64,000 nt of DNA. It comes from Boswellia sacra. Lineage: Eukaryota; Streptophyta; Magnoliopsida; Sapindales; Burseraceae. The stretch is from the NCBI GenBank assembly GCA_013180625.2, contig SNVD02010008.1:186001-250000 (forward strand), in the 5' to 3' direction. Under the pieces are notes generated by a model. It did no database searches, was not told the origin of the DNA, and saw nothing but the letters and a program-made list of their open reading frames with translations. Each line of letters opens with the position of its first letter. Position 1 is the stretch's first letter. The translations under genes were made by a program, and so were the position numbers. Below are positions 13,801-55,800 of the stretch, piece by piece.

Positions 13801-13888
13801 ATTCATTCATTCATTACCCAAATTAATTATCCTCTTCTCTTCTTATTAGATTAATTTCCTCTGCGACTTCTTCTCTTTACTTATCACC

Positions 13889-15867: not shown

Positions 15868-18800
15868 TGTAATGCCCGTTGGGTTATTGGGCCTGAAGAA
15901 GGCCCAGCACAGTCCATTTTTAATAAAAATAAATAATAAATAATAATAATAGGAGGAGAAGGGGGGAGGAGGAATCGGGAGAGAGAGAAGGGGGAAGGTG
16001 GTCACTGTTTACCGTCGCCTTTGACTGGCTATTTCGATCAAATTCCGGCGAGTCTCTGACCCCACGATATGTCATTTTGAAGCTTGTAACGTCCTTTTTC
16101 CAATCATATATGCCTTGTCCTTGGGTTTTTCATCGTTTTTGCGGATCGAAGCGTGGAAGCCAGCGGCTTCCTATGCATTTTTCGGCCAAAATTCGGTGAG
16201 TTACCGGTAATTCTATATATTAAATTAAAGCTTATTCCATGCTCTTTCTAACCATACCATTTTTGTTACATGTTGATATACGAATGTTGCAAATCGGAGA
16301 GAAATGAAATTTGATCACTATTCACTCACCGGCGACGACATTCCGGCGACATTTTCAGTCATGTTTTTCCGGCCATCAAATAATTTTTATAACATTATTC
16401 ATCCATAAAGGAGCTTAAATTCAGTGAGTGGATTATATTTTGATAATTTTATTTTTATATTATAGTGTATTAAATTTATGGTTTTTCATATGATATACGT
16501 TATTAGATTAATTAATTGAGTTATATTAAGATGCTTTTAGAATCGATAATGATGAATTATGTATTTCGAAAATAAGTATATGTAAAGTATTTAATTTTGG
16601 ATAAAAGAGATGATTATGGGTGGTGCTAGTAAATTAGTTTTTGAATATGTAGCAAGTATTGTTTTGATAAGTTTGAATACAATAGAAAAATGAATTTAAA
16701 GTGAAAGTTGTAGAATGAATATATGTTATATGTTAATCGAAAGTAGAAAGTTTTTGTTTATAATTGGAAAAGAGACATTTATAATTAAATGAATTTGTAA
16801 AGGAAATTGAGGTATTTAGTTATTTTTCTTAAACAAATACATATGTTTAAGAAATAATGTTTTTGATTTACAAAATAATGAGTGATTTTATATTCAGAAT
16901 AATAGCAAATTAAAAAGGAAAGGTTTTGGAAATTAGAATTTAATTTTGCAGGGGTGATAATATTAAATTCTAAAATTACCCAATAGTAGGGTTTGAATAT
17001 AAATTTAGAAAACTGTTTTAGAATTTACAGGACCTAAATGCAGAATTCTAGAAATTTTAGGATAAAAAAGAAGATTTTAGTTAAAGCATGATATTTAAGA
17101 ATTTGGAAATCTTTGAAATTCTAAATTGAATGTTATATGCAAAGTATGAGATTTTGAGATAAAAATAGAAATTACGGTTTATAGTGAGATGAAAAGTATT
17201 TTATTTTATAGATATTTTAGAAAGTTTTTAGAAAGAGTATAAGATTTATTTTTTTTAGATAATTAGATATATATATTTTTTTGTATTTACTTAGCTATGT
17301 TTATTTAGTATTTTATAGAATTTCTGAAAATTTTATTGAATTCAGAAGAATTCAAGTTAGCTTCTTTTGTATTTCTCGAGGGTTAATAGACATAGTTGTT
17401 ATGTTTGCTTTCAATTATTAATATGTTTCAAAGCTAGTTTTCAAAATGATTGTAGACATAAATTTTAGTTTCAAAATTAGTTTTGAGCAAAGATATAACA
17501 CTTTTAAAGAAAGATTCATATTATATATACATGAATTGTTTTCTATATTATTATAGATGCATATTCTATCATTTTATAGAAAGTGTAAAAGCAGAACAAT
17601 TATGATCATAGTTTTATATAGTAATTTGATTTCCAAGATTTCTTAAAGTATTTGCAATTACTCTTTTAAATATTTATTATGAATTTTCAAGGATTCGGAT
17701 ATTATGAGTTTCAGCTTATATAAGTTTTACAAATTTTGATAAATCTGTTTGAGAAGCAATGATTTAGTATATGAAGCAAATTTTGAAAAGAAATCAGTTT
17801 TAGCAAAAAAAAAAAAAATTTAATTATATTATACTAAGTTAGTACGCAGCTCACTTAGACAGTGAGACAACAGATTTCAGATAGAAAGATAGAGACCCTT
17901 GGGGCCCATTCAGACACACATAGAGGCTTTAAGCCGTGTGATCTGAGCGCTTTACCCCTTTGGGGGCAGTTCTACGCATGCGTATGACCAGATAGTAGGC
18001 CTATACGATGTTAGATCTCGCCAGATACGGATAGCTCTGCCTGTGTGATGTAGATCTCACCAGGTACGAGGAGATTCAGATAGCAAGCCTGTGCGATGTT
18101 AGATCTCGCCAGGTACAGATAGCTCTGCCTGCGTGATGTAGATCTCACTAGGTATGAGAAAATTCAGATAGCTCTGCCTGTGCGATGTTAGATCTCGCCA
18201 GGCAGGATCAGACAGTTTCATGGGTACTTGTTTAGTATAATGAAAAGAGTTTTAAATATGTTTATATGAGTTAGTTTGAGAAAGAAGCATTATCCGTAAA
18301 AGTTTATTTCGGAAAGAAGATTTTAAAGAAATTATGTTTTGTTTATTAAATAACTGAAGCGATGATTTTAGCATATCATCATGAGTTTTATTTTATGAGA
18401 TTGAGAAAATATGCATTCTTTCCACTGCTTTTAAAGAATATAGAATCAAGCAATTTTATTTGAAGATTTTTAATCAAAAGTTATTTGTTTTGAAAATTCT
18501 ATAAGATATTTGATGATATTTTGACAAGTACGATAGATTTTTCTTAAGTATAAATATAAGATGAGTTTTCTAGTTAGAAATGTATTATATAATTTTATTA
18601 TGAGACAGTCATAGTCATACAATTTATGATTTGTTTAGAGAATAAATTTAACTAGTGATTGAGTATATGATGAGGAAAATGTTATTTAAAAATTCTATAC
18701 TATTTTATTTCTTTTCGCATCTGTTTATACATCTTTTTAGAGAGAAGAAAGAGATATAATGATAAATTTTACAGTGTATACGAGATTAAATAAGGGTTCA

Positions 18801-19648
18801 AAGTAAATGTACGCAAGCAATTTGCTTATATAGTTTAAGAATATTAAGTTATTTTGGTAAGTAAGTTGAAGAATTATATAAAGTGTTTTCTTTACAGATG
18901 GTTATTAAAATTTTATAGTTGTTTTATAAGAATGAAGTTTATAAAGAAAGCTGAGAAGAAATAGTCGTTTGTACGTTATTTTGAAAAGAAAAATATACTG
19001 GTTCCCTTTTAGAAGTGATTATACATTGTATTTTGTTTTAAGAAAAATGAAATTTTAGAGCACAAAGCTTTATTTAAAGAATGAGTTGTGTGAAAGAAAG
19101 AAAGTAATATTTTATGTAATAAAATATGTCCACTCACTGAGCCTTTAGCTCATTCTTTTCCTATTTTTTTTCCTAACCAGATGCTACAGGTTTGGTGCTA
19201 AGCTGTCTTTAATGCAAAGGAAGGCCACACGATGTATACTAATTTTTCATGCATTAAAATTATTTCATTTTTATGTATCTTGTATAAATTTTTAAAGGTT
19301 AAGTACGTTGAGTATGATTTATTTATCTTTTAGGATATTGTGGTTGGTAAGGACGAAAGTTCCAAAAAGAAGTCGGGATGAGGAATATTTTAGAAGTGTA
19401 AAAATGTGTATTTTTGCAGGGGGTTTTCTTCAAATTATAGGGGAAACTCTGTCGGTTTTTCAATAAAAATATTCCGAGTATTTTTTTATTTTATATAAAA
19501 GACACAAACTAAAAAAATAATTTTTTATGAATAGTTTTATCAGAGTGACAGAGCAAAAAGTGTAGGAAGATAGTTAATTGAAAGATTGTTCTTTTAGTGA
19601 ACAATTTTAGGCATGACTTGCCTGTATAGCTAGGGGCGGGTCTTGTCA
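15868..19648 (+). repeat. 5' LTR (3.8 kb)
   Basis: Extends from TGTAATGCCCG to TTGTCA, just before the primer-binding site. The first 350 bp are comparatively GC-rich with repeated ccggcgac-type motifs, the rest is AT-rich with an embedded tandem array at 17985-18205. No long reading frame is present. Confidence 0.88.
17985..18205 (+). repeat. Tandem repeats within the 5' LTR
   Basis: Alternating units of about 40-45 bp containing gcgatgttagatctcgccagg and tgatgtagatctcaccaggt, about five in total. The same array occurs in the 3' LTR at 22290-22510. Confidence 0.8.
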
Positions 19649-19651
19649 ATT

Positions 19652-20109: not shown

Positions 20110-22289
20110 TGTAATGCCCGTTGGGCCATTGGGGTTGAAGAAGGCCCAACCCAGCCCATTTTTAATAAAAATAAATAATAAATAATAATAATAGGAGGAG
20201 AAGGGGGGAGGAGGAATCGGGAGAGAGAGAAGGGGAAGGCGGTTACTGCTCACCGCTGCCTTTGACCGGCGATTCCTGTCAAATTTCGGCGAGTCTCTAA
20301 CCCCACGATATGTCATTTTGAAGCTTGTAACGTCCTCTTTCCAATCATATATCCCTTCTCCTTGGGTTTTTCATCTTTTTTGCAGATCGAAGCGTGGAAG
20401 CCAGCGGCTTCCTATGCATTTTTCGGCCAAAATTCGGTGAGTTACCGGTAATTCTATATATTAAATTAAAGCTTATTCCATGCTCTTTCTAACCATACCA
20501 TTTTTGTTACATGTTGATATACGAATGTTGCAAATCGGAGAGAAATGAAATTTGATCACTATTCACTCACCGGCGACGACATTCCGGCGACATTTTCAGT
20601 CATGTTTTTCCGGCCATCAAATAATTTTTATAACATTATTCATCCATAAAGGAGCTTAAATTCAGTGAGTGGATTATATTTTGATAATTTTATTTTTATA
20701 TTAAAGTGTATTAAATTTATGTTTTTTCATATGATATACGTTATTAGATTAATTAATTGAGTTATATTAAGATGTTTTTAGAATCGATAATGATGAATTA
20801 TGTATTTCGAAAATAAGTATATGTAAAGTATTTAATTTTGGATAAAAGAGATGATTATGGATGGTGCTAGTAAATTAGTTTTTGAATATGTAGCAAGTAT
20901 TGTTTTGATAAGTTTGAATACAATAGAAAAATGAATTTAAAGTGAAAGTTGTAGAATGAATATATGTTATATGTTAATCGAAAGTAGAAAGTTTTTGTTT
21001 ATGATTGGAAAAGAGACATTTATAATTAAATGAATTTGTAAAGGAAATTGAGGTATTTAGTTATTTTTCTTAAATAAATACATATGTTTAAGAAATGATG
21101 TTTTTGATTTACAAAATAATGAGTGATTTTATATTCAGAATAATAGCAAATTAAAAAGAAAAAGTTTTGGAAATTAGAATTTAATTCTGCTGGGGTGATA
21201 ATGTTAAATTCTAAAACTACCCAATAGTAGGGGTTGAATTATAAATTAAGAAAACTGTTTTAGAATTTGCAGGACCTGAATGCAGAATTCTAGAAATTTT
21301 AGGATAAAAAAAAAGATTTCAGTTAAAGCATGATATTTAAGAATTTGGAAATCTTTGAAGTTTTAAATTGAAATTTTTGGGAATTAGTTAAATTTTGAAG
21401 TATAATTATGTGGAAGAATGTTATATAGAATGTTATATACAAAGTATGAGATTTTGAGATAAAAATAGAAATTACGGTTTATAGTGAGATGAAAAGTATT
21501 TTATTTTGTAGATATTTTAGAAAGTTTTTAGAAAGAGTATGAGATTTATTTTTTTTAGATAATTAGATATATGTTTTTTTTTTGTATTTACTTAGGTATG
21601 TTTATTTAGTATTTTATAGAATTTCTGAAAATTTTATTGAATTCAGAAGAATTCAAGTTAGCTTCTTTTGTATTTCTCGAGGGTTAATAGAGCCAGTTGT
21701 TATGTTTACTTTCAATTATTAATATGTTTCAAAGCTAGTTTTCAAAATGATTGTAGACATAAATTTTAGTTTCAAAATTAGTTTTGAGCAAAGATATAGC
21801 ACTTTTAAAGAAAGATTCATATTATATATACATGAATTGTTTTCTATATTATTATAGATGCATATTCTATCATTTTATAGAAAGTGTACAAGCAGAACAA
21901 TTATGATCATATTTTTATATAGTAATTTGATTTCCAAGATTTCTTAAAGTATTTGCAATTACTCTTTTAAATATTTATTATGAATTTTCAAGGATTCGGA
22001 TATTATGAGTTTCAGCTTATATCAGTTTTACAAATTTTGATAAATCTGCTTGAGAAGTAATGATTTAGCATATGAAGCAAATTTTGAAAACAAATCAGTT
22101 TTAGAAAAAAAAAAATAAGAAAGTTTAATTATATTATACTAAGCTAGTACCTAGCTCACTTAGACAGTGAGACAACCGATTTTAGATAAAAAGATAGAGG
22201 CCTTTAGGGCCCGTTCAGACACACATAGAGGCTTTAGGCCGTGTGATCTGGGTGTTTTAGCGCTTTAGGGGTAGTTCTACGCATGCGTA

Positions 22290-22510
22290 TGATCAGATAG
22301 TAGGCCTGTGCGATGTTAGATCTCGCCAGGTACACATAGCTCTGCCTGTGTGATGTAGATCTCACCAGGTATGAAGAGATTCAGATAGCAAGCCTGTGCG
22401 ATGTTAGATCTCGCCAGGTACAGATAGCTCTGCCTGCGTGATGTAGATCTCACCAGGTATGAGAAAATTCAGATAGCTCTACCTGTGCGATGTTAGATCT
22501 CGCCAGGCAG
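22290..22510 (+). repeat. Tandem repeats within the 3' LTR
   Basis: Counterpart of 17985-18205; units carry gatgttagatctcgccaggta alternating with gatgtagatctcaccaggta. Confidence 0.8.
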
Positions 22511-24092
22511 GATCAGGCAGTTTCAGGGGTACTTGTTTAGTATAATGAAAAGAGTTTTAAATATATTTATATGAGTTAGTTTGGGAAAGAAGCATTATCT
22601 GTAAAAGTTTATTTTGGAAAGAAGATTTTAAAGAAATTATGTTTTGTTTATTAAATAACTGAAGCGATGATTTTAGCATATCATCATGAGTTTTATTTTA
22701 TGAGATTGAGAAAATATGCACTCTTTTCACTGCTTTTAAAGAATATAGAATCAAGCAATTTTATTTAAAGATTTTTAATCAAAAGTTATTTGTTTTAAAA
22801 ATTCTATAAGATATTTGATGATATTTTGACAAGTACGATAGATTTTCTTAAGTATAAATATAAGATGAGTTTTCTAGTTAGAAATGTATTATATGATTTT
22901 ATTATGAGACAGTCATAGTCATACAATTTATGATTTGTTTAGAGAATAAATTTAACTAGTGATTGAGTATATGATGAGAGAAATGTTATTTAAAAATTCT
23001 ATATTATTTTATTTCTTTTCGCATCTGTTTATACATCTTTTTGGAGAGAAGAAAGAGATATAGTGATAAGTTTTGCAGTGTATATGAGATTAAATAAGGG
23101 TTCAAAGTAAATATACGCAAGCGATTTGCTTATATAGTTTAAGAATATTGAGTTATTTTGGTAAGTAAGTTGAAGAATTATATAAAGTGTTTTCTTTACA
23201 GATGGTTATTAAAATTTTACAGTTGTCACTACAAGAATTTTTTACATATTTGTCACTTCACAATTTTTTTATTTGATAGTTTTTAAAAAAAATGAGAAAT
23301 TTAACCATGTCTTAACAGTCAAACCTATTAATTCATCTTATTTGTCTCTTTTTGTCTTTATTCAATCACATATATATCACATTTTTATAAAAATTTGACA
23401 AGTATGTGAAAATATAATTTTTTCTTTTCATTCTCAAATTTTCTTCTTTCTTTTCATTTTTGTTTCAAATATGTGAATATAATATTTAAAATTTCAATAA
23501 ATTTATTTAAATATAATTAAACAATATAATTTTATTTTTAATTTAAAATCAAAAATAATTTTTAAAATCTTTAAATTAAAGATAACATTATTATATATAT
23601 GAAAAGAATAAATTTTTAAATATTAAATTTTAGAAAAATAAATTTTTAAATATGAAAATTTTATGAAATAAATAAAATTATTTTTTAATTTAAAAGTGAT
23701 GAAAATCATATTATTTAATTACTTTAATGAAAATTAAGTAATTAAAAATATCAAAAAAATTATTTTACAATAATATAATATTTTAAATATGTAAAAAATT
23801 ATTATAATTTATTTTAAAAATTATGGATAAGAGGTGGGAGGGGGAGGAGGATGTAAATTGAAAAAAGAAAAAAATTAAAAAAGAGAAAAAAAAGGAGAGT
23901 TAGTATAGAGAATCAGAGACAGGAGTCGAGATGAATGAATGAATGAATTATTTGAAAGAGCGAGCCGAACTGCGACGATCATCAAAATGCATCGTTTTTG
24001 TCAATCAAAAACCCTAGCCCTATCCGTTTTACGCCTTTCTAGGCTTTCGATCTGTTGATCTGTGGATCTGCTGTGATCTGAGGTTAGGGCGA

Positions 24093-28790: not shown

Positions 28791-29531
28791 TTCTTGTAGT
28801 GTGTTTTATAAGAATGAAGTTTATAAAGAAAGTTGAGAAGAAATAGTCGTTTGTACGTTATTTTGAAAAGAAAAATATACTGGTTCCCTTTTAGAAGTGA
28901 TTATATATTGTATTTTGTTTTAAGAAAAATGAAATTTTAGAGCACAAAGCTTTATTTAAGGAATGAGTTGTATGAAATAAAGAAAGTAATATTTGATGTA
29001 ATAAAATATGTCCACTCACTGAGCATTTAGCTCATTCTTTCCCTATTATTTTTCCTAACCAAATGCTACAGGTTTAGTGCTAAGCTGTCTTTGATGCAAA
29101 GGAGGGCCACACGATGTATACTAATTTTTCATGCATTAAAATTATTTCATTTTTTATGTATCTTGTATAAATTTTTAAAGGTTAAGTACGTTGAGTACGA
29201 TTTATTTATCTTTTAGGATATTGTGGTTGATAAGGACGAAAGTCCCAAAAAGAAGTCGGGATGAGGAATATTTTAGAAGTGTAAAAATGTGTATTTTTGT
29301 AGGGGGTTTTCTTCAAATTATAGGGGAAACTCTGTCGGTTTTTCAATAAAAATATTCCGAGTATTTTTTATTTTATATAAAAGACACAAACTAAAAAAAT
29401 AATTTTTTTATGAATAGTTTTATCAGAGTGACAGAGCAAAAAGTGTAGGAAGATAGTTAATTGAAAGATTGTTCTTTTAGTGAACAATTTTAGGTATGAC
29501 TTGCCTGTATAGCTAGGGGCGGGTCGTGTCA

Positions 29532-31496
29532 ACGGATGCTATAATGCATGGCCAGTCCATAACACCACGAATATCGAGCCACAACCAATTAGAATTAGGA
29601 AACTTTGAGTATAAGCCTTGAAAGATACTTCAATCGATTGAATTATCAACACTGTTTAGTACACATATATATACAAAAAGCTTTGGATAGCTGTTAAACT
29701 CTGATTGATTAAATTGTAACTAATTATAAGTAATTGTAACTCTGCTAACAAAGCTAACATAATCAGCAAACAGAGTTAACAGCACCAGCTAACAGACTAA
29801 CAATAGTAACTAATTGTATTGAACGATTATAGCTAACACAACCTATCTAAAATTATATGTTAATTTAATTGATTATATAGTTTCCATTAACTTTGGAATC
29901 AATTGTTTATAGTTGTTCCATTTTTATCGTATCTCCTCATCACAAGTGAAATGACTTTTTCACCAATATATGGTTCCATCGAAGGCATTCGTAAGTTCAC
30001 ATACAAACATTAAAACATGTTTGCTAGCCGAAGTTTGTGCAATTGGCCCGCAAACTTCAATTTAATTATTATTTCAAAAGGTAATTGACATTCTTAAGAA
30101 TCAGGTTAATAATCAGATAAATTTGAATTAAGTTAGTTTAATTATTTAGTAGTTCTTATTTGTTTGGTCTAGTTCCTCACTAATTAATCTCTACTACAAG
30201 CAATTTTTTTTTTTAATTTTGGAGAACAACGTATTAGGATAGGCAAAAAAAAAAAAAAACCGAGAAACTGAACCAAACTGTCAAAACCGGTTTGTTTTTG
30301 TTTTGTAGCTTAATGATATTTTTGTACTAGACTTTTTTTTTTTATTCATCCATAAATTATTGCAACCATGTGACTTTCTAAACCATATATGGAAACCTTA
30401 ATAAATTAGTTCCAAATTCTTGATAAAACATTACTTATTGTTTACTACTAAATATTTAATTTTAAAGGACTTCTATATATACAATATAACCATATAATCA
30501 TACTTATATAATGTGTGATGTGATGTAACATAATTTGATTAGATAATAAAATTACACAATAAATATACGATGCAGTAATTTAATGATATGACATTGAATG
30601 ATATTATGTCACGTTATGTTATATGAGAGTGATTGTATAAGAAGTTTATTATTATTATTATTATTATGAAATTTGAATTGTGACATTGGTTTTGGATATG
30701 TAATTAACATTGTATTGCTTTATTGCCTATCTTTAACTCATCCTAAATAAATGAAAAAATAAAAACAAAACCAAGCACAATTAATCCAATTTTCATCAAA
30801 AGACTTAAATGCACACAATACATAATAAGTATTACTCACCCAAAAATATTCATTCTCAGTTCAGTTAGATTGTATGAATTAAGTTATATGACTTTATTGT
30901 ACACCCAGTATTACTCATCCTAAACATCATCTTTGAATTTTGTACATCACCAGAAACTCTTTCGAAAAAAATTCTTCTATAAAACAATTAATAAGAAAAA
31001 AAAGATAGTTGAAATGAAAAGATAATACTAGTAAAATAAAATTTTAAGACAATAGCAATTAGCAAATCTTTAATTAGTCATGTAATAAAACTGAATATAT
31101 ATAATTTGACCGTTGGAGGCAAGGTCAGGGAGCGCCACAATTTGGTATCTAACAGCTTATGATGTCTCGGAAAACCGCCTTTATAATCGATTTAGGAAAC
31201 ATAATAGAATTTGAAACTAACTCGGATTATAATCCTTGCAAGAAATATAAATTAAAATTATCCAAACTCGATCTTACAATTATCACTTAATCACTTCTTG
31301 TATTGCAACCTTCATTACCCTATTAAGATACAAATTTCACCTTCATACTAATCGCTACAAACATTAACAAACAATTAGGAAGCTTTTTTTTTTTAATTCA
31401 TTCATTCATTACTCAGATTAATTATCTTCCTCTCTTCTTGATTTCCTCTCTTCTTGATTTCCTCTCAAACTTCTTCTCTATTCACGTATCATCACC
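29532..31496. other. Host flank of the large-LTR element
   Basis: The first bases (atgcatggccagtccata) match 13572-13592. 31140-31496 matches 13640-13888, the leader of the intact J-domain-like gene. Between these, 29600-31100 is extra AT-rich DNA relative to the other copy with no recognised gene. Confidence 0.55.
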
Positions 31497-31634: not shown

Positions 31635-32335
31635 TGATGAGCTCATGCATGATGCATGGAGCTTCTAGATCCCTCCTATGTGAATGAGTTGAGTCAATGG
31701 AGGTAGGCACCTCCCATATGGTAAGTTAAGGTTAGGTGAACTACCCACCTAACTTTGTTGAAATTGTATGCAGAATTTTTCTATAAATATGGGACGAATT
31801 CTTCCTGAGTTTGTAAGAGTGATGGATTGCAAAGAGAGTCCAATCCAAAACCAGAGAGTTCTGAGAGTGTGAGAGAGCCAAGAGAGCTCCAGGATTAGTT
31901 TAGGGGAGTTTTTGTGTAAATCTTGTATATTGAATTTTCTCTGTTAATACAAGTTAATTTTCTTCTAGAAATCTGTTCTGAGTTTGCATTGCATCCCCAA
32001 CAAGTGGTATCAGAGCCTCGTTAAGCTCCTGGAACGTCAGAACAGAGAGAAAAAAAAATTAGAGAAAATTCGTCCCCTGTTTCTGGAAAATTTTGAATTT
32101 TCGGAAAGTGTTCGAATTCCAAATTTGAAGTGTCCAGTGTGCTCGTGACGTCGTGTTGATCATTCTGCAATTTTTCGGCAATCGATCCGACCACCAGAGA
32201 AGCCTCACGTGCCACCAGCCTGCACTGCGAGTGGGCTTCACTCGCCTCACGTGCTGCATGCGTGTCTCAAGGAAGAAGACGACCCACGTCATCACACTTT
32301 TGTCACGTCATCAGGACACGTCAGCATAGCCACGT
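31635..32335 (+). mobile_element. Copia 5' end: LTR, primer site and leader only
   Basis: 31635-32002 is a 368-bp LTR (TGATGAGCTCATGCATGA..CCCCAACA) related to 4423-4789 and sharing its TATA box and gttctgagttt end. TGGTATCAGAGC at 32005-32016 is the tRNA-Met primer site. The leader continues to 32335, where the Athila-like LTR begins. No Copia coding sequence follows on either side of the Athila-like element, so the rest of this copy is deleted. Confidence 0.9.
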
Positions 32336-33864
32336 TGACACATCCGAAAAAGGATTGTCTCCCAAGTATAGGAGTGTCGAAGTAATAAAACCCGGTGAGA
32401 CCGGGGTCGATCCACGAGGAAGGGAATTTAAGCGTTACAAATTATAAGCTAAACAAATGTGATATGGATGATTCAAAGAGGTGACATGATAATATCAACA
32501 AGTATGTAAGATGGTAGGTGGTATTACCGACCATTCAAATATAAAACAAAAAGCAAGAGGAGGTAAAACCATCCATGGAAATAGGTGGTATAACCAACCA
32601 TAGTAAATTAAAGAACAATTTCATAAGGTGGTAGAACCTACCATAGTAAATAAAATAAAAAGTTCATAAACAATAGAATAATTAAAATACAAGAGGAATT
32701 AACACAATAACAATGAAGGCTAAGGTTAGGGGATCCGCCCTTAATATTTCAAATAAGGATAATTAACCCATTTTAGTTATATGAATTATATTTGTTTCAT
32801 TACCAATATTTATACCACTTCTTGTAAATGGGTTCAAGCATCCAATGTGCCAATCACCATATGTCTACAACAAATCAAGGTTCCTAACTAGATTCGTGTC
32901 GGTAAGGAAGAACCATACATCATCTAGAAAGGATCCAAGCATTTGATGTGCCAAGGATTGTCGACAATGGATCAAGACCTCCACTTTACGAGTGGTGTCA
33001 AGATTGATTAAGAAATTAAATATAAATCATATTGAATAAACATTATAAGATTAAGATTATTAAGCACATATTAAGGGTTAGAGAATCCTTATTCTCATAT
33101 CAAGGGTTTCACCCTTTCACCTTAGCAAAAGAGAAATTAGAAGAACATTATAATAGAAAGAAAATAAAATGCAAGAAAAAGGAAATTCATTAATAACATA
33201 AACACACAAAACACAATACAAGATCCTAGCCAAAGCCAAAATGTTCCAGCCAAGGCCAAGATGCCCTAATGGGTCACAAGGCACCTCTATTTATAGATAC
33301 ATCCAGGGGCAAACTTGTCAAATTACAAGGGCATAATTGTCAAATATTAGTTGTAAATATCTTTGACAATTGGGATCATTAGGCACCGACTTTGACCATC
33401 AATTTTGACATCGAAATGTTGTGAATTTTAATCACATGTCTTCATGAAAGTTGTAGATATTTCTCTCAGCTTTCTAGAACATATTGATTTGCACAATTTG
33501 GATACGTATTTTGAGAGATACGGTCCAAATACTGAGGCCTGGTCAGACTGGGCCGAGACTGTAGATGGGTTCACTTCAAGCCCAATTTTGGTCCACTAAG
33601 AGCCCGAATTTGATGATGCTTGTGAAATGCAATCTTGTAGACAATTAAATCAGCTTTCCAAAACATTAAGAATTGCACCATTCTGATCTATAAATAGAGA
33701 GTTATGCCCATTTTACCGAACCTGTAACAAAACCAAAATTAAGAGAAATTAATTCCAAAGATGCAAATGCTACAAATATGCTTAAGTTGAGGAATTTAAT
33801 GACACTATTAATGCAATATGATGAACTAAACTCTTATTAAACATGCATATTTAAGTGTTCATCA
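32336..33864 (-). repeat. Athila-like 3' LTR (1529 bp)
   Basis: On the minus strand begins TGATGAACAC and ends GGATGTGTCA. Matches 42443-43971 with about 14 substitutions clustered near the R/U5 end (plus-strand 32443-32515). Confidence 0.92.
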
Positions 33865-33878
33865 CACCCCCCAACTAG
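33865..33878 (-). other. Athila-like polypurine tract
   Basis: Minus strand agttggggggtgtg directly before the 3' LTR. Confidence 0.7.
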
Positions 33879-35228
33879 CTTATTGCTAGTCCCTAGCAAT
33901 TAAAGCGTTATTATTTAGAAGTGATTTATAGAATTTTACATCCAAGGTGGTCATTATTGCACTCTCCTTGATTTTATCCAAATAAACAAACTCTCAACTG
34001 ATTTTTTTTTTTTAAATGACTCATGTACCCTTCAGTCAAGATATCTACAAACCTTCTTTTGTGCTCAGTTGACACATGACTATGGGGCTTATTAGAAATA
34101 AGCCATATCGGTTCTAGTATTTGTTTAGGCTAACAACCTTAGGTAGGGGATATTCATTCATTTTATACATTTTTTCTTTTTTTTTTCTCTCTTTTTTTTT
34201 TTTTTTTTGAAAGACTGCATCTTTAACTCATGTAGCGAGCCTTAGGCTAATGACTCCCAGACCAGTTGGCCTTAGGGCATTAGGTGTTAAGACACCCCTA
34301 CGAGCTTAACGACTCGGGTTGCCGATGCTTTATTTTTGCTTAGAAACTTGTGGATAGTGCAATGTTCAATCCCATTAAGCTTTCTCCTTAATCCATGTAG
34401 CGAGCTTTGGGCCAATAGCTCCCAAACCAGTTGGTCTTAGGGTATTAGGTGTTGAGGCACCCCTCGGGCTTAATTGCTCGAATTAAGGAGGCTACAAGAC
34501 CAAACTTATCCACCATTGCTTTCTCTCTTTTTTTCTTTTTTTTTTCTTTCGTTTTTCATTTTTTTCATTTTTTTTTTAAACTTTCCCCTTCCTTTTGTTG
34601 TTTTCCTAAACAAAACAAAAGAACTCAAATATTGCAATATTTCATTTCGCCACCCACAATCATACATCAAGGTATGTGTGTGTGTGAAGAAAGATTCATA
34701 GATACTTGCTTAATGAGCACATAAGCACATAATTTATTAAATGATAAGGTTGTGAGAGTTCATAGATTTGAATGATTCAAAGTGAAATGAATAAGACCTC
34801 CTTGTTATAAAATTCAAAAATCAAGACTAAATAATATCAAATAAGTCTTCGAAAATGTAAGAATAAAATGACAAATTGGTTAGAATAGGTTTCAAGAGTT
34901 CAAACTGGTCCTCCCTACTCTGCCATTCCTGACCCAGAATGCGTCTCAAGAGGATTTGAACTCCTTACACCGCACTCTGAATCTAATTACTAACTCGCTT
35001 TCTTTTTTTTTTTTTTGCAAGAAAAAGTAAAATTTCAAGACACACTTATGTCTACTATCCTTCCCCCCCAACTAAATGAAACATTGTCCTCAATGTTTAA
35101 ATGTAGAGAGATAAAGTATAGGAGACATTACCTGAAGCTTCTATTATTGAAGAGAGATGACCTGAAAGACTCATAAAATAACATGCTAAAAATAAAATAA
35201 AATAAAATAAACGACAAGAAGAAAAAAA
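33879..35228 (-). other. Non-coding tail between LOG and the 3' LTR
   Basis: No supported gene. It contains a direct repeat of about 80 bp (34233-34312 and 34394-34473, sharing accagttgg and cattaggtgtt) and several T-rich runs on the plus strand (34160-34209, 34530-34580). Confidence 0.6.
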
Positions 35229-35897
35229 TTACAAACGGAGATTCAAATCCAATTTGCACTTTTTGTTTTGCCCTCCTGCCCAATTAATTTGAGTACTAGC
35301 TAGGTCAGGTTCATACTCAACTTCTTGTAATTTGTCAAGTAACTCACCAGCAGAAGTGGCAGAAACAAGGATCTTTCTCGCTGAATGAGGGATAAAATTT
35401 TGTTCCACAGCTGCATCAACAAAACTTATCAAAGGATCAAAGAAATTTTTGACATTCAACAAACCTATGGGTTTTTGATGGAGATTCAGTTGGGCCCAAG
35501 AGGCAATTTGAAAAATTTCTTCAAGAGTGCCAAAGCCACCTGGTAAAGCAATAAAGGCATCTGAATTGATGAGCATATGTGCCATGCGTTCATGCATAGA
35601 GGAGACTTGTAACACCTTCCCAACCGTTTTTCCAACAATGCTTTCTACAACCAAAGCTTTAGGAATAACTCCTCAAACTTGACTGCCTCCTACATGTGCA
35701 GCTGTTGATACGCAACCCATTAACCCGAGGCTACCTCCCCCATAAACCACATGAATCTTTCTTTCAGCCAGTAGCCTACCAAGATAGTTTGCTACTTCTA
35801 CAAACTCCTCACTTTTACCCGGTCGAGATCCGCAGAATACACATATCCTTTGGATTCGACGTTGTGAAGTTCCCTCTATGTCTATGCAACTCTCTAA
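35229..35897 (-). pseudogene. LOG-like: LOG-type cytokinin riboside 5'-monophosphate phosphoribohydrolase, intronless, captured in retrotransposon
   Basis: LOG enzymes release active cytokinin bases from nucleotide precursors in the cytosol. The minus-strand frame gives RICVFCGSRPGK, VVYGGGSLGLMGCVS, then a single TGA (35673-35675), GVIPKALVVESIVGKTVGKV, MHERMAHM, ALPGGFGTLEEIFQIASWAQ, KPIGLLNV and a family-like C-terminus ending QINW and a basic tail; about 220 codons, the usual LOG length. The nucleotide-binding GGGS.GLMG and the catalytic PGGxGTxxE motif are intact; MHERK has Met for Lys. No in-frame ATG lies between the upstream stop (about 35898) and RICVFCG. Plant LOG genes have several introns; none is present here, and the orientation equals that of the element, pointing to capture through an RNA intermediate. 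Confidence 0.9.
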
Positions 35898-36199
35898 CTA
35901 TGTGTGAGGAAGAGAATAAGAGATGTGGTATTTATGGGGTGCAAAAAGGTATGCTAATGATGACATCTAAATAGGTAGCTTGGTTGCTTTTTGAAAAATA
36001 TGACAATAATGCATAGAAATTCAAAAAAAGATGATGAAATAAGACACCATAAGTCAAGCAAAAGATACAAATTCAAAAATGACAGCTATAAGGCATTAAA
36101 ATTCAAAAATGATGGGTCGCATGCATATGTACAGGTAGTTGTGACTGTGGCTCACATCTTCCTCTGGTTTTACGTCCAGAAACGGCTTAAACACCTTCT

Positions 36200-36817
36200 A
36201 TGAGTTGGGGATATGCTTCCCATCCAGTTTTCTTATAAACTGGCAAACAGGGTCATTTTGAGTCAGATTCCCAAGACTATAGCGTTCCTGCTCATCTCGG
36301 AATTGTGTCCACAAATTAAAAATTTCACGCTGCACAAGTCCACAAGAATGCGTTTCAAGAGTCGTTCGGATATCATCCAAAGACTTCTTACTCAGTCATA
36401 TTGATGAAACGGTGTTTTATCCTCCGCGATGGTTTAGACACAAAAACCCCAAAGGCAGCAGGCAACGGGGTTACAAGTCAATCTGCCCACCAATATGTGC
36501 ACACAACAGCGATGAAACAATAGCACTTTGCTCTTGCTTTTTGGCCATACGAGCTTTTATTCCCAAAAACCTGGCATTATGGGAAACAAGATTATCTGAA
36601 AACTAACAAGAGATCGAACCTTGGCTTTAATTAACCATCTTAAATCAGCAGGAATACCCTTACGCATCAACAACCTTAGTCTTTCTGCACGAGCTTTATA
36701 AATTTTAAGCAAATCATTTTGAGGAACAGAGGGAAAATGTTTGTGCAATTTTGAGAGAATGGTATCCATGTGAAGAAAATAAGAGAGAAGAAAAGAAAAT
36801 GGATGCAAGGTGAGCAA
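36200..36817 (-). pseudogene. Unassigned frame between integrase and LOG
   Basis: A broken coding stretch on the minus strand. The first part (MDTILSKLHKHFPSVPQNDL, then AERLRLLMRKGIPADLRWLI) continues after shifts through KARMAKKQEQSAIVSSLLCA to DDIRTTLETHSCGLVQREIF and ends KLDGKHIPNS. It is rich in charged residues, has no signal peptide or membrane segment, and does not look like an env-like protein. It could be an extra ORF of this Athila-like family or another acquired host sequence; I do not recognise it. Confidence 0.5.
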
Positions 36818-36897
36818 CAGTTTTTAGGGAACTGAAAAACCGACTTTAAAAGCCACGGAGTACCGTGTCCGCCACTTGACCGGGAAAAATCAATCCT

Positions 36898-38127
36898 TTA
36901 AAAGGATCGATTAAAGCAAATGGACTCTTCGTTTTGGGCAAAATTTTCAAAGAATGGTTTTAACCGTTGACCATTAACTTTAAAAACATTACCATTCTTT
37001 GGGTTCTCAATTTCAATTGCTCCATGAGGGAAAACATTTTTAACAATGAAATGCCCAGTCCAACGAGACCGAAGTTTACCAGGAAACAAATGCAATCTTG
37101 AATCATACAAAAGAACTTTTTGTGAAGGTTCAAAAGATTTTCTAACAATGTATTTGTCATGAAAAACCTTCATTTTTTTCTTTGTAGATTTTAGAATTTT
37201 CGTAAGCCTCATTCCTGATTTCTTCAAGTTCACTTAGTTGGAGTTTACGTAACTTGCAAGCATCATTCAAATTTGTGTTGAATGTTTTAATAGCCCAATA
37301 AGCTTTATGCTAAATTTCCACAGGCAAGTGACAAGGTTTTCCATAAACTAGTCTATAAGGAGACATTCCCAATGATGTTTTAAAAGCAGTTCGGTAAGCC
37401 CAAAGTGCATCATTAAGTCTTAAAGACCAATCTTTACGATTTGGGTTAACCGTTTTTTCTAAGATCTGTTTTATCTCCCTATTAGCTAATTCAACTTGTC
37501 CACTTGTTGGTGGGTGATAAGGTGTAGAAATTTTATGGGTTATTCCATATTTCTTCATTAAGGTTTCAAATGGTTTATTACAAAAATGTGTACCCCCATC
37601 ACTAATAATGGCTCGAGGAATTCCAAATCTACTCAAGATATTCTCCTTCAAGAATTTGACAACTGTTTTGTTATCATTGTTTCGACATGGAATTGCCTCG
37701 ACCCATTTTGAAACATAGTCCACTGCAACAAGGATGTACACAAAACCAAATGACGGTGGAAAGGGTCCAATAAAATCGATATCCCAACAATCAAAGATTT
37801 CAACAACAAGAATGGGATTTAAAGGCATCATGTTTCTTTTTTAAATGATCCCAATGTTTGACAATTTTCACACGTTTGGCAAAATGCATGTGCATCTTTA
37901 AATAAGGTGGGCCAATAAAATCCACATTGTAAGATCTTAGCAGCTGTTTTTCTAGATGAAAAATGTCCTCCACATACTTCAGAATGACAAAAGTTAATGA
38001 CACTACTTACCTCATTGTCGGGTATGCATCGTCTCATTATTTGGTCTGGACAATATTTGAACAGGGAAAATGGGTTGCAATGACAGTAAAAAAGTTGATT
38101 CAACCTGGTCCCACACGATACGGACAC
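36898..38127 (-). pseudogene. Athila-like integrase, frameshifted
   Basis: The zinc-binding domain (38127-37828) has HSEVCGGHFSSRKTA and CQTCENCQTLG. The core (37831-37310) has [20 protein letters not shown] with the first Asp, [12 protein letters not shown] with the second Asp, and [14 protein letters not shown] with Glu, a full DDE triad. The C-terminal part (37233-36898) has [17 protein letters not shown] and [11 protein letters not shown], characteristic of the Athila lineage. Frame changes at about 37830 and 37300 split the domain into three frames, so it is not expressed as one protein. Confidence 0.92.
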
Positions 38128-38455
38128 TGATTATTCGATCAGACTGTCGCTAGAGCACAAAAGAAAAAATTTACAAGGTGAGTAGCAACCCCAAGGTACA
38201 AGTGTAGCAACAGAATAATAAAAATTTATCAGGAAAGAATCCATTTGATAGGTGAAGTGATCAATTAATGTCTCTGTCGTTAGTCTTGAAAGACATCAGC
38301 AACGACATTGCGGCGCCATAGTCTCTATCCATTTATGTTATGATAGTTGAAATTCATTGGATGCAATTGAAGAAGTCCACTCGTATCAATGACTAGGTTA
38401 TTGCATCCGTTTAGGTCGGATTAAAATACTCACAGCTGAAGATGGTCAAGTAGTA
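38128..38455. other. Foreign 330-bp segment replacing the RNase H C-terminus
   Basis: RNase H is readable up to FRSYLI (about 38455) and integrase resumes at 38127, but the 330 bp between encode neither. The segment (caaggtgagtagcaacccc, aagtgtagcaacag) has an LTR-like flavour but no TG..CA ends or duplication that I can see. About 100 residues of RNase H and linker are missing. Confidence 0.6.
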
Positions 38456-41441: not shown

Positions 41442-42308
41442 CTAGGGATGCGAATTTGGCTTGAAGGTCATGGTCTTCCCTAAGGTTGTAATACCTCTAT
41501 TGGATGTCGAGGTTTGGGCCTTGCTTGGTACCTCATAGGTGCCAGCAGTGTCCCAATTTTGTGCCTTTTCTGCCAAGGAATCTAGGAAGTCAAGTGCTTC
41601 CTCAGGGTCTTTTTCTTTAAATTCTCCATTACACATTAATTCCACTAGTTGCCTATCTTGAGGTGTTAACCCTTCATAGAAATGTGCAACTATTCTCCAA
41701 GTTTCAAACCCATGGTGAGGACAGGTATTAAGTAGTTCCTTATACCTATCCCAAGATTGGTAAAGGGTTTCTCCTTGTCTTTGAGAGAAATCAGAAATTT
41801 GTCTTTTAAGAGAATTTGTTCTATGGGTAGGAAAAAATTTTTTCAAAAATTGTTGTTTCATCTCATCCCATGAACTGATGGAATTCGACCTCAAATTTTG
41901 TAGCCATGTTCTAGCTTTATCTTTTAAAGAAAAAGGAAAAAGCTTTAATCTAATGGTGTTTATGCTACAATTTGGATCAGTGTAGGAGCTACATACCTCT
42001 TCAAAGAGTTTCAAGTGCGAATATGGGTTCTCCATGTCAAGGCCATGAAAAGTGGGTAGAAGTCGAACAAAACTTGGTTTGAAATTGAAATGGATTGAAT
42101 CTGGAGGAGAAACTACACAAGATGGTGCACTAGTCCTTACCGGATTCATGTAGTCTTTGAGGGTTCTTCGTTGGTTTTGATCATTTTGTTGCGAACGGTT
42201 GTCCCCTTCATCCGTGAATATTTCCTCATGATTGTTGGCCATGTTTTCTAAGGAAGATGATATTTTTCTAACAAGTCTACCACTAGATGTTCGTGACCAA
42301 ATTTTCAT
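41442..42308 (-). CDS. gag: Athila-like Gag
   Basis: A 288-codon frame, starting 111 bp inside the primer-binding site. Residues 70-235 are the retrotransposon gag fold: FKPSFVRLLPTFHGLDMENP, RLKLFPFSLKDKARTWLQNL, WDEMKQQFLKKFFP, GETLYQSWDRYKELL, FYEGLTPQDRQLVELMC. The C-terminal part is polar. The frame ends before the zinc knuckle, so this Gag lacks nucleocapsid unless a frameshift is suppressed. Confidence 0.88.
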   Translation of the reverse strand: MKIWSRTSSGRLVRKISSSLENMANNHEEIFTDEGDNRSQQNDQNQRRTLKDYMNPVRTSAPSCVVSPPDSIHFNFKPSFVRLLPTFHGLDMENPYSHLKLFEEVCSSYTDPNCSINTIRLKLFPFSLKDKARTWLQNLRSNSISSWDEMKQQFLKKFFPTHRTNSLKRQISDFSQRQGETLYQSWDRYKELLNTCPHHGFETWRIVAHFYEGLTPQDRQLVELMCNGEFKEKDPEEALDFLDSLAEKAQNWDTAGTYEVPSKAQTSTSNRGITTLGKTMTFKPNSHP

Positions 42309-42418
42309 GCAAGAAAGGAAGAAGAAAAGAGAGCAAAAGATGAAAACACAAAAATAAAAAATTTAGATCTAAGATGAGAAAAGAGAACACTTACAATTTT
42401 GCACGCCAATTTTTACCT

Positions 42419-42436
42419 TCCCCGGCAACGGCGCCA
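42419..42436 (-). other. Primer-binding site (tRNA-Asp type)
   Basis: Minus strand TGGCGCCGTTGCCGGGGA, six bases inside the 5' LTR; a site used by Athila-like and related plant Gypsy elements. Confidence 0.85.
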
Positions 42437-42442
42437 AAAACT

Positions 42443-43971
42443 TGACACATCCGAAAAAGGATTGTCTCCCAAGTATAGGAGTGTCGAAGTAATAAAACCC
42501 GGTGAGACCGGGGTCGATCCACGAGGAAGGGAATTTAAGCGTTACAAATTATAAGATAGGCAAATGTGATATGGATGATTCAAAGAAATAACAAGAGAAT
42601 ATCAATAAATATGTAAGATGGTAGGCGGTATTACCGACCATTCAAATATAAAACAAAAAGCAAGAGGAGGTAAAACCATCCATGGAAATAGGTGGTATAA
42701 CCAACCATAGTAAATTAAAGAACAATTTCATAAGGTGGTAGAACCTACCATAGTAAATAAAATAAAAAGTTCATAAACAATAGAATAATTAAAATACAAG
42801 AGGAATTAACACAATAACAATGAAGGCTAAGGTTAGGGGATCCGCCCTTGATATTTCAAATAAGGATAATTAACCCATTTTAGTTATATGAATTATATTT
42901 GTTTCATTACCAATATTTATACCACTTCTTGTAAATGGGTTCAAGCATCCAATGTGCCAATCACCATATGTCTACAACAAATCAAGGTTCCTAACTAGAT
43001 TCGTGTCGGTAAGGAAGAACCATACATCATCTAGAAAGGATCCAAGCATTTGATGTGCCAAGGATTGTCGACAATGGATCAAGACCTCCACTTTACGAGT
43101 GGTGTCAAGATTGATTAAGAAATTAAATATAAATCATATTGAATAAACATTATAAGATTAAGATTATTAAGCACATATTAAGGGTTAGAGAATCCTTATT
43201 CTCATATCAAGGGTTTCACCCTTTCACCTTAGCAAAAGAGAAATTAGAAGAACATTATAATAGAAAGAAAATAAAATGCAAGAAAAAGGAAATTCATTAA
43301 TAACATAAACACACAAAACACAATACAAGATCCTAGCCAAAGCCAAAATGTTCCAGCCAAGGCCAAGATGCCCTAATGGGTCACAAGGCACCTCTATTTA
43401 TAGATACATCCAGGGGCAAACTTGTCAAATTACAAGGGCATAATTGTCAAATATTAGTTGTAAATATCTTTGACAATTGGGATCATTAGGCACCGACTTT
43501 GACCATCAATTTTGACATCGAAATGTTGTGAATTTTAATCACATGTCTTCATGAAAGTTGTAGATATTTCTCTCAGCTTTCTAGAACATATTGATTTGCA
43601 CAATTTGGATACGTATTTTGAGAGATACGGTCCAAATACTGAGGCCTGGTCAGACTGGGCCGAGACTGTAGATGGGTTCACTTCAAGCCCAATTTTGGTC
43701 CACTAAGAGCCCGAATTTGATGATTCTTGTGAAATGCAATCTTATAGACAATTAAATCAGCTTTCCAAAACATTAAGAATTGCACCATTCTGATCTATAA
43801 ATAGAGAGTTATGCCCATTTTACCGAACCTGTAACAAAACCAAAATTAAGAGAAATTAATTCCAAAGATGCAAATGCTACAAATATGCTTAAGTTGAGGA
43901 ATTTAATGACACTATTAATGCAATATGATGAACTAAACTCTTATTAAACATGCATATTTAAGTGTTCATCA
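42443..43971 (-). repeat. Athila-like 5' LTR (1529 bp)
   Basis: Minus strand TGATGAACAC..GATGTGTCA. A strong TATA box is read on the minus strand as CTATAAATAGAGG (plus-strand 43391-43404; equivalent at 33284-33298 in the 3' LTR). Confidence 0.92.
43391..43404 (-). promoter_or_regulatory. TATA box of the Athila-like LTR
   Basis: Minus strand TCTATAAATAGAGG, conserved in both LTRs; it would drive the full-length transcript that includes the LOG copy. Confidence 0.65.
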
Positions 43972-44815
43972 TACCATGAGAAGAAAAATGAGAAACCAAT
44001 TAAGAAAGAGAAGATTGTTGAGAAGGGCAAGGAAGTTGCCAAGGAAGAGGTCAAGGAAGAAGAATACCAAGTAATAAAGCAATTGAAGAAGACTCAGGCG
44101 AATGCCAGTATTTGGGACTTGTTAATCTCGTCTCAAAAGCATATAGAAGCCATGGTGAAGGCTTTGACAGAAGTAGAGATATCAATGACAACCACTCCAA
44201 ATGAGATGTTGACTGCCATGACTAGAAAAGAATCCAAGGGGTTAAAACAGAGGGGGCTAATCACTTTCACTGATGATGATTTGCCTATTGAAAGAAAGAA
44301 TCACAATAAGCCGTTGTTCATCACCGCGAAGATTGGAGAGCAGATTTCTCCTTGCATCATGGTGGATGGTAGGTCTGCTATCAATATTGTGCTTATGAAG
44401 ATATTACACAAGTATGGTGTTAGTGAAGATGATCTCGAGCCCTGTGAGATGGTGATCAGGGCTTGTGATGACTCGAAAATGAGTATTGTTGGGATTTTCA
44501 AGGCATTAGTAAATACTGAACCTATTGAAGTTAAGACTGAGTTCACTGTTCTTGACATTCTTGTTACCTTCGCTGCTTTATTGGGCCAAGCATGATTCCA
44601 TCCACTTGGTAGGATTCCTTCCACTTGACATCAGAAGATCTTATTCAATATGGATGAGGAGATTATGACCATTCATGTTGCCTCAATCATTGCACCCGCT
44701 ACCTTAGGTGTGAAGGTTGGAAAGATACCTTACATGGGAGGCTTCTATGTAGCCATGATCAATGAGATCAGTCCACTTGTTGCTGGAATAATAAAGAAAG
44801 AAGGGTAATTACCAA
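43972..44815 (+). pseudogene. Tat-like Gag end and protease
   Basis: A Lys/Glu-rich tract (VEKGKEVAKEEVKEE) leads into QLKKTQANASIWDLLISSQK, the usual Tat junction, then ITFTDDDLPIERKNHNKPLF and a retropepsin-like region in which the D-T/N-G active site reads VDGRSAINIV. The frame ends near 44595 (LLGQA, family LLGRPWIH). Confidence 0.75.
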
Positions 44816-47479: not shown

Positions 47480-48595
47480 GCCAAAAGGGATGCAATTAAA
47501 GTGTGTCGATAAAGAAGAAGTTGGACGGCTCATAGAGAAAATCCACAGTGGAGTATGTGGGCTACACATGAACAAGCTAATACTTGCAAAGACGATAATA
47601 AGGCAGGGTTTTTATTAGCTAACCATCGAGATAGATCGTGTCTAATTTGTGAAACCTCGTCACTAGTGCCAGATCAATAGAAATTTGATTCACCAACCAC
47701 CTTTAGAGCTATAAGGAATGGTAGCACTATGGCCCTTCACTGTATAAGACATTAACATTATGGCGAGATAAGGTCGTTAGCCTTTAATGGGCATCAATAT
47801 ATGATGGTGGTGATTGACTACTTCACCAAGTGCATAGAAGCGGGGTCCTAAGGTAAACTGAGCACAAGACAGATAGCGAAGTTCATTAAGAAGAACATCA
47901 TATGTAGATTTGGAGTACCACATCACATCGTGACTGATAATAGGTTTCATTTCCAGGATGAGACTAAAACCTTCTTGAGAAGTATGGGATTGAACACCAT
48001 AAGTCATCTCCATACTGGCCACAAGCAAATGGAGCATTAGAAACAGCCAATAAGAACAACAAGAAGATGCTGGCCAAGACGGTGCAGACATACAAAGATT
48101 AGGCTAAGAAAGTTATTATTTGTATTATGGGGTATAGAACGACACCTAGAAGCTCAACAGGCATGACACCCTTTTATTAGTGTATGGTTCAGAAGCAGTC
48201 CTACCAATTGAGATAGAAATGCAATCAGCAAAGGTTCTAATGGAAGCAGAAACTCCTAAAAGGGAATAAGTTCAAAATAAATGTGAACAATCAGCTTTGA
48301 CAGATGAGAAAAGAACGAAGGCCAGATACCACATGCAGTTATACTAAAAGTGGGTTGCTCGAGCCTTTAACAAGAGAATAAAGGCAAAAAAAATTCAAAG
48401 AATAATTGGAATTGGTCCTCGAACAAGCAATGTTGATAATGTTTGATTCGAGAGCAAAGTTCAAACCCAACTGGGAGGAGCCATTCATTGTGATAAAGGT
48501 TATGTCTGACAAAGTCGTCATCTTATCAGACATGTAAGGAAATGAGTTCGCAGAGCCTATCAACATAGATAGGCTAAAGAAATATTATTTGTGAA
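47480..48595 (+). pseudogene. Tat-like integrase
   Basis: Pieces in different frames: HSGVCGLHMNKLI, QYMMVVIDYFTKCIEAG (about 47790-47850), KFIKKNIICRFGVPHHIVTD (47880-47940), GSEAVLPIEIEMQSAKVL (48187-48240), KFKPNWEEPFIVI and NIDRLKKYY at the end. Numerous stops and a damaged HHCC finger. It is homologous to 61850-62740 on the other strand. Confidence 0.85.
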
Positions 48596-48799
48596 AGTGA
48601 GAATAAAAGAAAAGAGTGTGGGAGGAAAATTAATTAGTTAGAAAATCAAAAATGGCTGATTAACGACAAGAGTTGTATCATTGTACATATATTATTTTAA
48701 GAACAAACGATTGTACTTTTATTAATGAAATGAAATTGTTTAGAAACAAATATACTTTTAAAATGTCTCATTATTTTGCATGATAACAAAAGAAAGCAT

Positions 48800-50340
48800 C
48801 TAAGCTAACAATGAAATTGTCAATGTCACCTCAGGCTCTTCGTTGGACTACGAATACGTTTGTTGTATCGCTCACAGCATTGTCTGACTCAAACAGTCGA
48901 ATCAGGAATGGAAGCCTAAAAGGTCACCCAACCCTTGTATTAATCATCTATCTAAAAGTCAAAATCATGGAACAGATTCCTCTTGATGGTTCAAAGCCAC
49001 CAAGAGTCCCTCACACGCTCTAAATAGTGAGTAAATAGTCTTCTAAGACCGAAAGTAGTCAACAAGTCTATGATCTTCTACTTAAGTTCATAATGCCAAT
49101 GTAGTCTATTAGGATCATAAAAATAACTATGGATGAAACCTACCAAAGGCACGTACGCAATGTAGGTCTCGACTGTCACATGCTCCAGCCTTCACTATGG
49201 ATAGTGCCAATGAGCATCCAGAATGACTTAAAGCTAGTCAACCCAAGATGAATATCTCTCAAGTCTCTTCCTTGTATGAAGTTGAGGGCTATAATAGGAA
49301 ATATCCCCCATCAGACGGTGCTAGAATAGACAGCCTCTCTTGTAACCAAATTTGAAAAACAAAAAAAGAAAAATAAGAAAACCCTGTTAAGTAAAAAACC
49401 TGAAAAGGCGGCTTAGGCAAAAGTTAGGGTAGAAAAAAGAAAAAACCTGCTGAGCTGAAAACTCGAAAGGGCGACTCAGGCACAAGTTAGGTCAAGCTTG
49501 TTAAGTTAAAAACTCCAAAGGGCGACTTAGGCAAGAATTAAAGCATGAAAGAATAAAAGAAGAAAAAAAAGAATAAAGAAAAAGCCTATTGAGTTGAAAA
49601 CCTAAAAAGGGTGGCTCATGCAAAAATTAGGGCAAACTCACTAAGTCAAAAACCCGAAAGGGTGACTTAGGCAAAAAATTAGAGCATGAAAAAAAAGAAA
49701 AAAGAAAAAAAAGAAAAAAAAACCTGCAAAGTCAAAAAACTGAAAGGGTGACTTAGGCAAAAATAAGGGTAAAAAGAAAAATACCTGAAGAAATAAAAGA
49801 CTACCACCGAACCCGTAACTGGGATCAATCTTGACGCGGTCTAGTCCAATCAATGTCTCAGTAAGAATGATGGCCATAAGATATAGTTCTCTAGGACCAT
49901 TCGATGAAACCAATAGAAACTGTGCAAGTAAGCAGAACTAAAGAAGCTGAAGCTAATCGGATAAGATCCTATCCATCATCTTAAGCAAAAGCATGATGGA
50001 AAACAATATCACTCTACAACCTCCAGTGTGAATACCATGGTAGAAATCAAAAAGTCAAAGAAATCAATAAGGCGAGACATCGATAATGTCTCAATAGTAG
50101 GTAGAATGATGCTCTCCAAACATAACAAATGATAACCAAGTATAGTACAGAATTCCTTATGTAGGGGGCAAAGCTCTTGCCCATTGAAGTGGACGACATG
50201 GTCGTAAGAATCTCACAAGGCCGTGAAGTCCCTTACATGTCGAAGCAACTTCAAATTGTAAAGGCAGCTAGATTCAAGTAGCTTCTAGTCATCTTCCTTT
50301 AGAAGTTTTAAGAATGACTGAAGAACTTTGAGAATGGCCT
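48800..50340 (-). pseudogene. DUF7745-like gene antisense to the left Tat-like element
   Basis: Minus-strand reading gives LLRHVRDF, HVVHFNGQELCPLHKEF and ILGYH (50200-50340), LIDFFDFLISTM (about 50040), then LTETLIGLDRVKIDPSYGFG (49800-49870), an intron-like interval with tandem repeats (49370-49790) and IWLQERL (about 49325). The order equals that of the better copy at 60302-61546. Plant proteins with this domain are often linked to Tat-type elements. Stops are frequent, so it is a pseudogene. Confidence 0.65.
49370..49790. repeat. Tandem repeats in the intron-like part of the antisense gene
   Basis: About seven degenerate 55-75-bp units containing aaaacccgaaagggcgacttag and gcaaaaattagg. 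Two or three units exist in the right copy (60950-61105). Confidence 0.75.
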
Positions 50341-55264: not shown

Positions 55265-55800
55265 ATCCGACACGACTCGACACGTAGTGTTGATTGTCAA
55301 GTGGATGTGTCGAGTGTTTGTTTTGAATGTTTCGAGTGTATGTTTTGAATGTGTTGAGTGTTTGTTAAAAATGTGTCGAATGGCTGTTATGAATATGTCG
55401 AGTGGCTGTTATGAATATGTCGAGTGTCTGTTATGAATGTGTTGAGTGGCTATTTTGAATGTGTTGAGTGGCTGTTTTGAATATGTCGAGTGGCTGTTAT
55501 GAATGTGTCAAGTGTTTGTTATGAATGTGAAGAGTGTCTGTTTTGAGTGTGTTGAGTGTCTGTTTTAAATGTGTCGAGTGTCTGTTATGAATGTGTCGAG
55601 TGTCTATTTTGCATGTGCCAAGTGGCTGTTATGAATGTGTCGAGTGTTGTTATGAATGTGTCGAGTGTCTGTTTAGAATGTGTCAAGTGTCTGTTTGGAA
55701 TATGTCGAGTGTCTGTTTTGAATGTGTCGAGTGTCGTATGCACGACTCGACATGTAGTGTCGAGGGTCGAGTGTCTGGTGTCGAGTGTCGAGTTATGAAA
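55265..55800. repeat. 22-bp minisatellite (tgtcgagtg units)
   Basis: About 22 units of the type gaatgtgtcgagtgtctgttat, variable at several positions, ending in a denser tgtcgagtg run. It lies inside the probable solo LTR. Confidence 0.9.

Follow-up and report, generated by a model that had tools for sequence, protein, structure and literature searches.

The window, by which we mean the whole 64,000-nucleotide stretch of Boswellia sacra DNA analyzed here, contains an 11.6-kb retrotransposon that carries a LOG-type frame and has its coding domains on the minus strand. The element was assigned to the Ty3/gypsy type because reverse transcriptase precedes integrase; an LTR pair, gag followed by the order protease, reverse transcriptase, RNase H, and integrase, and a primer-binding site are all present. 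Comparison of the window with itself placed the 3' LTR at 32335..33868 and the 5' LTR at 42442..43975 (both minus); the two are identical at 1519 of 1534 positions, with 15 substitutions (11 of them transitions) and no gap, which bears out the figure of about 99% given in a preliminary description of this locus. The primer-binding site (42419..42436, minus) adjoins the 5' LTR and reads as complementary to the 3' terminus of plant tRNA-Asp, and a brief G-rich run at the 3' LTR (33865..33876, minus), located from the sequence, would serve as a weak polypurine tract. Profile matches on the minus strand identified gag (PF03732, 3.3e-23; 41445..42362); protease, reverse transcriptase, and the start of RNase H (PF13650, PF00078, PF17919, and PF17917; 38493..40580), in a frame that stops inside the RNase H profile; the integrase zinc-binding domain (PF17921, 8.1e-14; 37831..38130), in a frame that differs from that of the reverse transcriptase; and the integrase core (PF00665, 1.9e-19; 37313..37840), in a frame distinct from both, which closes with a stop. 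Between integrase and the LOG frame, an open stretch at 36560..36823 (minus) gave nothing above the Pfam cut-off, only weak hits (0.079 and 0.18), and is possibly the remnant of another extra frame. Antisense to gag, at 41707-41815 (plus), Rfam reported plant snoR71 just above the gathering threshold (41.4 bits against 40), a marginal hit that may be due to chance.

The element may well belong to the Athila clade. Neither a second RNase H, a plant mobile domain, nor Athila ORF-1 was found among the 40 open stretches of at least 55 codons in the internal region, where pol is broken. A second (archaeal-type) RNase H is described as a mark of Tat, and ORF-1 is reported from only 16% of Athila elements (PMC6317226).

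Elsewhere in the window, pieces of a Copia-type retrotransposon occupy 624-3199 (plus), in which gag, integrase, and reverse transcriptase each have a frame of their own; a CAP-domain protein frame (PF00188, 1.6e-19) lies at 10475-10978 (minus) and a DnaJ-domain frame (PF00226, 2.3e-08) at 13850-14317 (plus). A direct repeat of about 3 kb (15868-18922 and 20110-23226) is 96% identical, and an adjoining segment (18913-19649) recurs at 28794-29532 with 97% identity. Further along, the segments 47529-50196 and 60474-62727 are diverged repeats of each other in opposite orientation, matching in several blocks at 74-78% identity, and at 55302-55740 self-matches at successive 22-base shifts reveal a tandem array whose unit is about 22 bases long.

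At substitution rates of 1.3e-8, 7e-9, and 2.5e-9, the LTR divergence corresponds to 0.38, 0.70, and 1.97 million years, respectively, ages that are valid only if both LTRs derive from one insertion. Comparison of 4- to 11-mers near both ends of the element found no target-site duplication of 4 to 6 bp; a lone shared 4-mer sits off the LTR edges, with the right-hand copy overlapping the end of the LTR. Duplications in a survey of plant elements are reported as 5 bp (93.4%), 4 bp (6.2%), or 6 bp (0.4%) (PMC6317226). The LTRs may therefore come from different elements. Pol is broken, with reverse transcriptase, integrase zinc finger, and integrase core in three frames, and by this reading the copy is dead. 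Judged qualitatively, these lesions look like more than would be expected from the LTR difference accumulated since insertion, and we infer that either the lineage had already decayed and was moving in trans or this copy is a recombinant. Because the target duplication was not found and pol is broken, the similarity of the LTRs cannot serve to date the capture of LOG. The element had been called young; given the missing duplication and the pol in three frames, that word fits the LTR identity only.

The LOG-type frame (PF03641 and TIGR00730) occupies 35897 to 35229 of the minus strand and comprises 222 codons (221 sense codons and one TGA, at codon 75) followed by TAA. The domain coordinates confirm that it lies in the sense of pol, between integrase and the 3' LTR. 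Directly upstream is a TAG, and the frame has no ATG start, the first Met falling only within the GLMG motif. With the stop written as X, it matched PF03641 at 2.5e-39 (134.9 bits; cut-off, 27) and TIGR00730 at 2.2e-50 (170.9 bits; cut-off, 96.35). The best match among solved structures was 2a33 (At2g37210), which we take to be AtLOG3, followed by 1ydh (At5g11950; 5.7e-56), presumably AtLOG8. Alignment with these two proteins and with chain 5zbj, presumably a bacterial LOG from Pseudomonas, left 177 core columns gapless; therefore, the core of the frame contains no intron and no frameshift. Both GGGSLGLMG and PGGFGTLEE are intact, the latter fitting the family motif PGGxGTxxE, and the catalytic residues, Arg and Glu, have been retained (MHER is present). 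The frame's membership in the LOG family is real on this evidence, and the near-complete, intronless frame with both motifs that had been described is borne out by the profile matches and the gapless core. As was also proposed, this copy is inactive to judge from its sequence, since it has no ATG and its reading frame is broken by the TGA. A chance open frame was rejected on two grounds: the match to AtLOG3 has an E value of 2.5e-63, and none of 2000 dinucleotide shuffles contained as few as one stop (0/2000 with ≤1; mean, 12.7; minimum, 3).

Upstream of the frame, 31 bases away, lies a TATA-like CATAAATA (35929-35936, minus) followed by a pyrimidine-rich stretch. It is a weak feature, to which we gave no weight: CATAAATA is one mismatch away from TATAAATA, in AT-rich DNA. 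If present in sister copies, it would hint at captured promoter DNA.

The LOG frame is only distantly related to the two plant LOGs that made up our comparison set. Over the aligned portions of the reference sequences, it is identical to AtLOG3 at 102 of 199 positions (51.3%), to AtLOG8 at 92 of 185 (50%), and to 5zbj at 83 of 176 (47%); between the references, AtLOG3 and AtLOG8 share 131 of 185 positions (70.8%), and AtLOG3 and 5zbj share 87 of 175 (49.7%). A scan of genome contigs with a 147-residue piece of the frame returned one relative (47%), at locus L001 of a Phocaeicola metagenome-assembled genome, and scans of viral contigs returned none for the LOG, integrase, or reverse transcriptase piece or for a degenerate motif of the LOG type. 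In a tree of five sequences (the LOG frame, AtLOG3, AtLOG8, 5zbj, and the Phocaeicola LOG; LG+G4, 1000 ultrafast bootstraps), AtLOG3 and AtLOG8 form a pair that excludes the element LOG with a bootstrap value of 100, and 5zbj groups with the Phocaeicola LOG (94). Since the frame falls outside the AtLOG3-AtLOG8 pair and is only 51% identical to AtLOG3, it is no recent copy of a gene of that type. We rejected such an origin as unsupported, and with it the recent capture of a transcript of this type of gene.

At the 52 columns where AtLOG3 and AtLOG8 agree with each other but not with 5zbj, the LOG frame is plant-like at 23 and like 5zbj at 9, and a plant origin is mildly favored. The similar identities to plant (51% and 50%) and bacterial (47%) LOGs might raise the question of a chance resemblance or a bacterial contaminant; however, the E value to AtLOG3, the excess of plant-like columns, and the fact that a plant-type element encloses the frame within its LTRs argue against both, and we consider this explanation exceedingly improbable.

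Much of the divergence of the LOG frame appears to have arisen under constraint, since the frame keeps 59 of the 74 columns that are invariant in AtLOG3, AtLOG8, and 5zbj (15 are changed), compared with 23 of the 52 plant-only columns (Fisher P = 5.7e-05). On this point the small number of stops carries little weight, because neutral simulation to 51% identity with substitutions alone averaged 3.6 stops per run, and 45 of the 400 runs ended with at most one. About 15 indels would be expected in neutral sequence at the same identity, at an assumed 0.08 per substitution; the absence of gaps, together with the kept columns, is therefore stronger evidence for constraint than the stop count. The sequence may have been under this constraint as a host gene, as part of the element, or both.

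In the first case, a LOG-like gene of the host may have accumulated the divergence and the capture may then be recent, which would count against an old acquisition by the element. The parent would have been a divergent, possibly intronless host LOG-like gene that is not of the AtLOG3/AtLOG8 type, and it would have entered the element shortly before insertion. The 99% identity of the LTRs and the nearly intact state of the frame are consistent with such an event, and a candidate source is suggested by a second plant clade of PF03641 proteins, alpha, which is described as lying apart from all reported LOGs (PMC11593424). The LOG domains of Citrus and poplar elements, on the other hand, suggest an older association unless they represent separate captures, and we regard a recent capture as possible but somewhat unlikely.

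It can also be envisioned that the LOG sequence did not travel with the element, but that LINE-type retroposition brought a processed LOG pseudogene into an element already in place, with no link to that element's life cycle. A single copy of the element was seen, its LOG frame is broken, and a 7-base direct repeat (35183-35189 and 35951-35957) brackets the frame, all of which would fit a separate insertion. However, by our hand estimate about 0.25 7-base matches are expected from length in margins of 60 bases, and more in AT-rich DNA; furthermore, there is no poly(A) after the LOG stop codon in the sense direction and no bracketing direct repeat of at least 10 bases between 34900 and 36300, and Gypsy elements elsewhere carry this domain too (PMC9289625). 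LINE-type retroposition was rejected as less likely on the missing poly(A), the missing longer repeat, and the near-chance 7-mer. The preliminary description had named target duplications around the LOG segment itself as the mark of a separate insertion; no such repeat of at least 10 bases is present, and the one near-chance 7-mer leaves that origin standing as very unlikely.

The preliminary description also referred to the frame as cytokinin activating. Membership in the LOG family and the catalytic Arg and Glu accord with that label; the prenyl pocket fits it less well. Met, His, Lys, Glu, and Trp have been proposed as prenyl-pocket residues, as in AtLOG3, OsLOG, and CpLOG (PMC4979012), and in the alignment the LOG frame retains Met, His, and Trp, while Lys is replaced by Met and Glu by Gln. 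The same work also assigns the pocket Lys to adenine binding and reports that replacing AMP-binding or catalytic residues with alanine, except for one serine, nearly abolished activity (PMC4979012). The frame scored 115.9 bits against the NCBI equivalog model CtkRMPhLog, below its cut-off of 300, a value that plant LOGs themselves may or may not reach. Because two of the five prenyl-pocket residues are altered, cytokinin release is doubtful even for an intact relative, which might not be an ordinary cytokinin-activating LOG. It is also conceivable that Gypsy elements keep a LOG lineage of their own, apart from host LOGs and with an altered base pocket, and that they benefit from it, for instance, through changed local pools of cytokinin or nucleotides in the dividing cells by which copies are passed on; the window would then hold a recently killed member. 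We consider this unlikely.

On balance, we favor, with modest confidence, the explanation that an Athila-like Ty3/gypsy lineage acquired an intronless LOG-type coding sequence long before the present insertion and has carried it as a sense extra frame. The source would have been the coding sequence of a LOG-type nucleotide phosphoribohydrolase without introns. Peanut LOG genes are reported to have 3 to 7 exons, the majority having 7 exons and 6 introns (PMC13257298), and the gapless LOG core, set against these intron-rich genes, appears to count for a processed-transcript origin. From the absence of introns alone, we infer that such a transcript would have been copied into element RNA during reverse transcription; template switching, as named in the preliminary description, is a proposed rather than a demonstrated route. 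The sequence would then have been kept in the interval between pol and the 3' LTR; that the LOG frame shares its strand with gag, reverse transcriptase, and integrase supports this explanation. An intact relative would be predicted to express LOG from the LTR transcript. The copy described here, which has no start, one stop, and a broken pol, is a dead passenger, and if pol was already broken at the time, the element would have moved with the proteins of other copies. If LOG-carrying elements elsewhere keep an intact, constrained LOG, then a mobile element would carry an enzyme of hormone activation, and host meristems or the spread of the element could be affected.

A LOG passenger in a Gypsy element is already known in kind. 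A survey of 121 angiosperm genomes (Alvarado-Marchena et al. 2022, PMC9289625) reported that Gypsy consensus sequences from two citrus species, Citrus sinensis and C. clementina, contain the YgdH domain of LONELY GUY proteins; switching off the copy filter added Populus trichocarpa. These findings are described there as "in line with" those of Steinbauerova et al. 2011. Among the literature matches listed, we met LOG domains in LTR elements only in this survey. Compared by description only, the Citrus and poplar elements are, like the present one, Ty3/gypsy LTR elements that have a domain of the LOG family in addition to gag-pol. The interval between pol and the 3' LTR is described as the most frequent place for extra frames, whether sense or antisense (PMC7264820), and plant LTR elements with sense extra frames, such as env-like frames, have them in the same place and orientation as LOG (PMC7264820, PMC6317226). 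Plant extra frames are described as mostly without known conserved domains (PMC9289625), whereas the LOG frame belongs to an enzyme family of hormone metabolism. A host-type enzyme domain in a Gypsy lineage is likewise reported from Phalaenopsis, in the form of an AlkB-type RNA demethylase; that protein was active in vitro (PMC9289625), whereas the LOG copy is broken and was read from DNA only. AtLOG3 and AtLOG8 share with the LOG frame the family, the PGGxGTxxE motif, and the catalytic Arg and Glu; they differ from it in sequence (51% and 50% identity, respectively) and in the pocket Lys and Glu, which are Met and Gln in the LOG frame. The LOG sequence in this element may thus be an old or unusual acquisition, and the copy provides a mapped example of a LOG that differs greatly from AtLOG3 and AtLOG8, a difference that speaks against the casual recent capture of such a gene.
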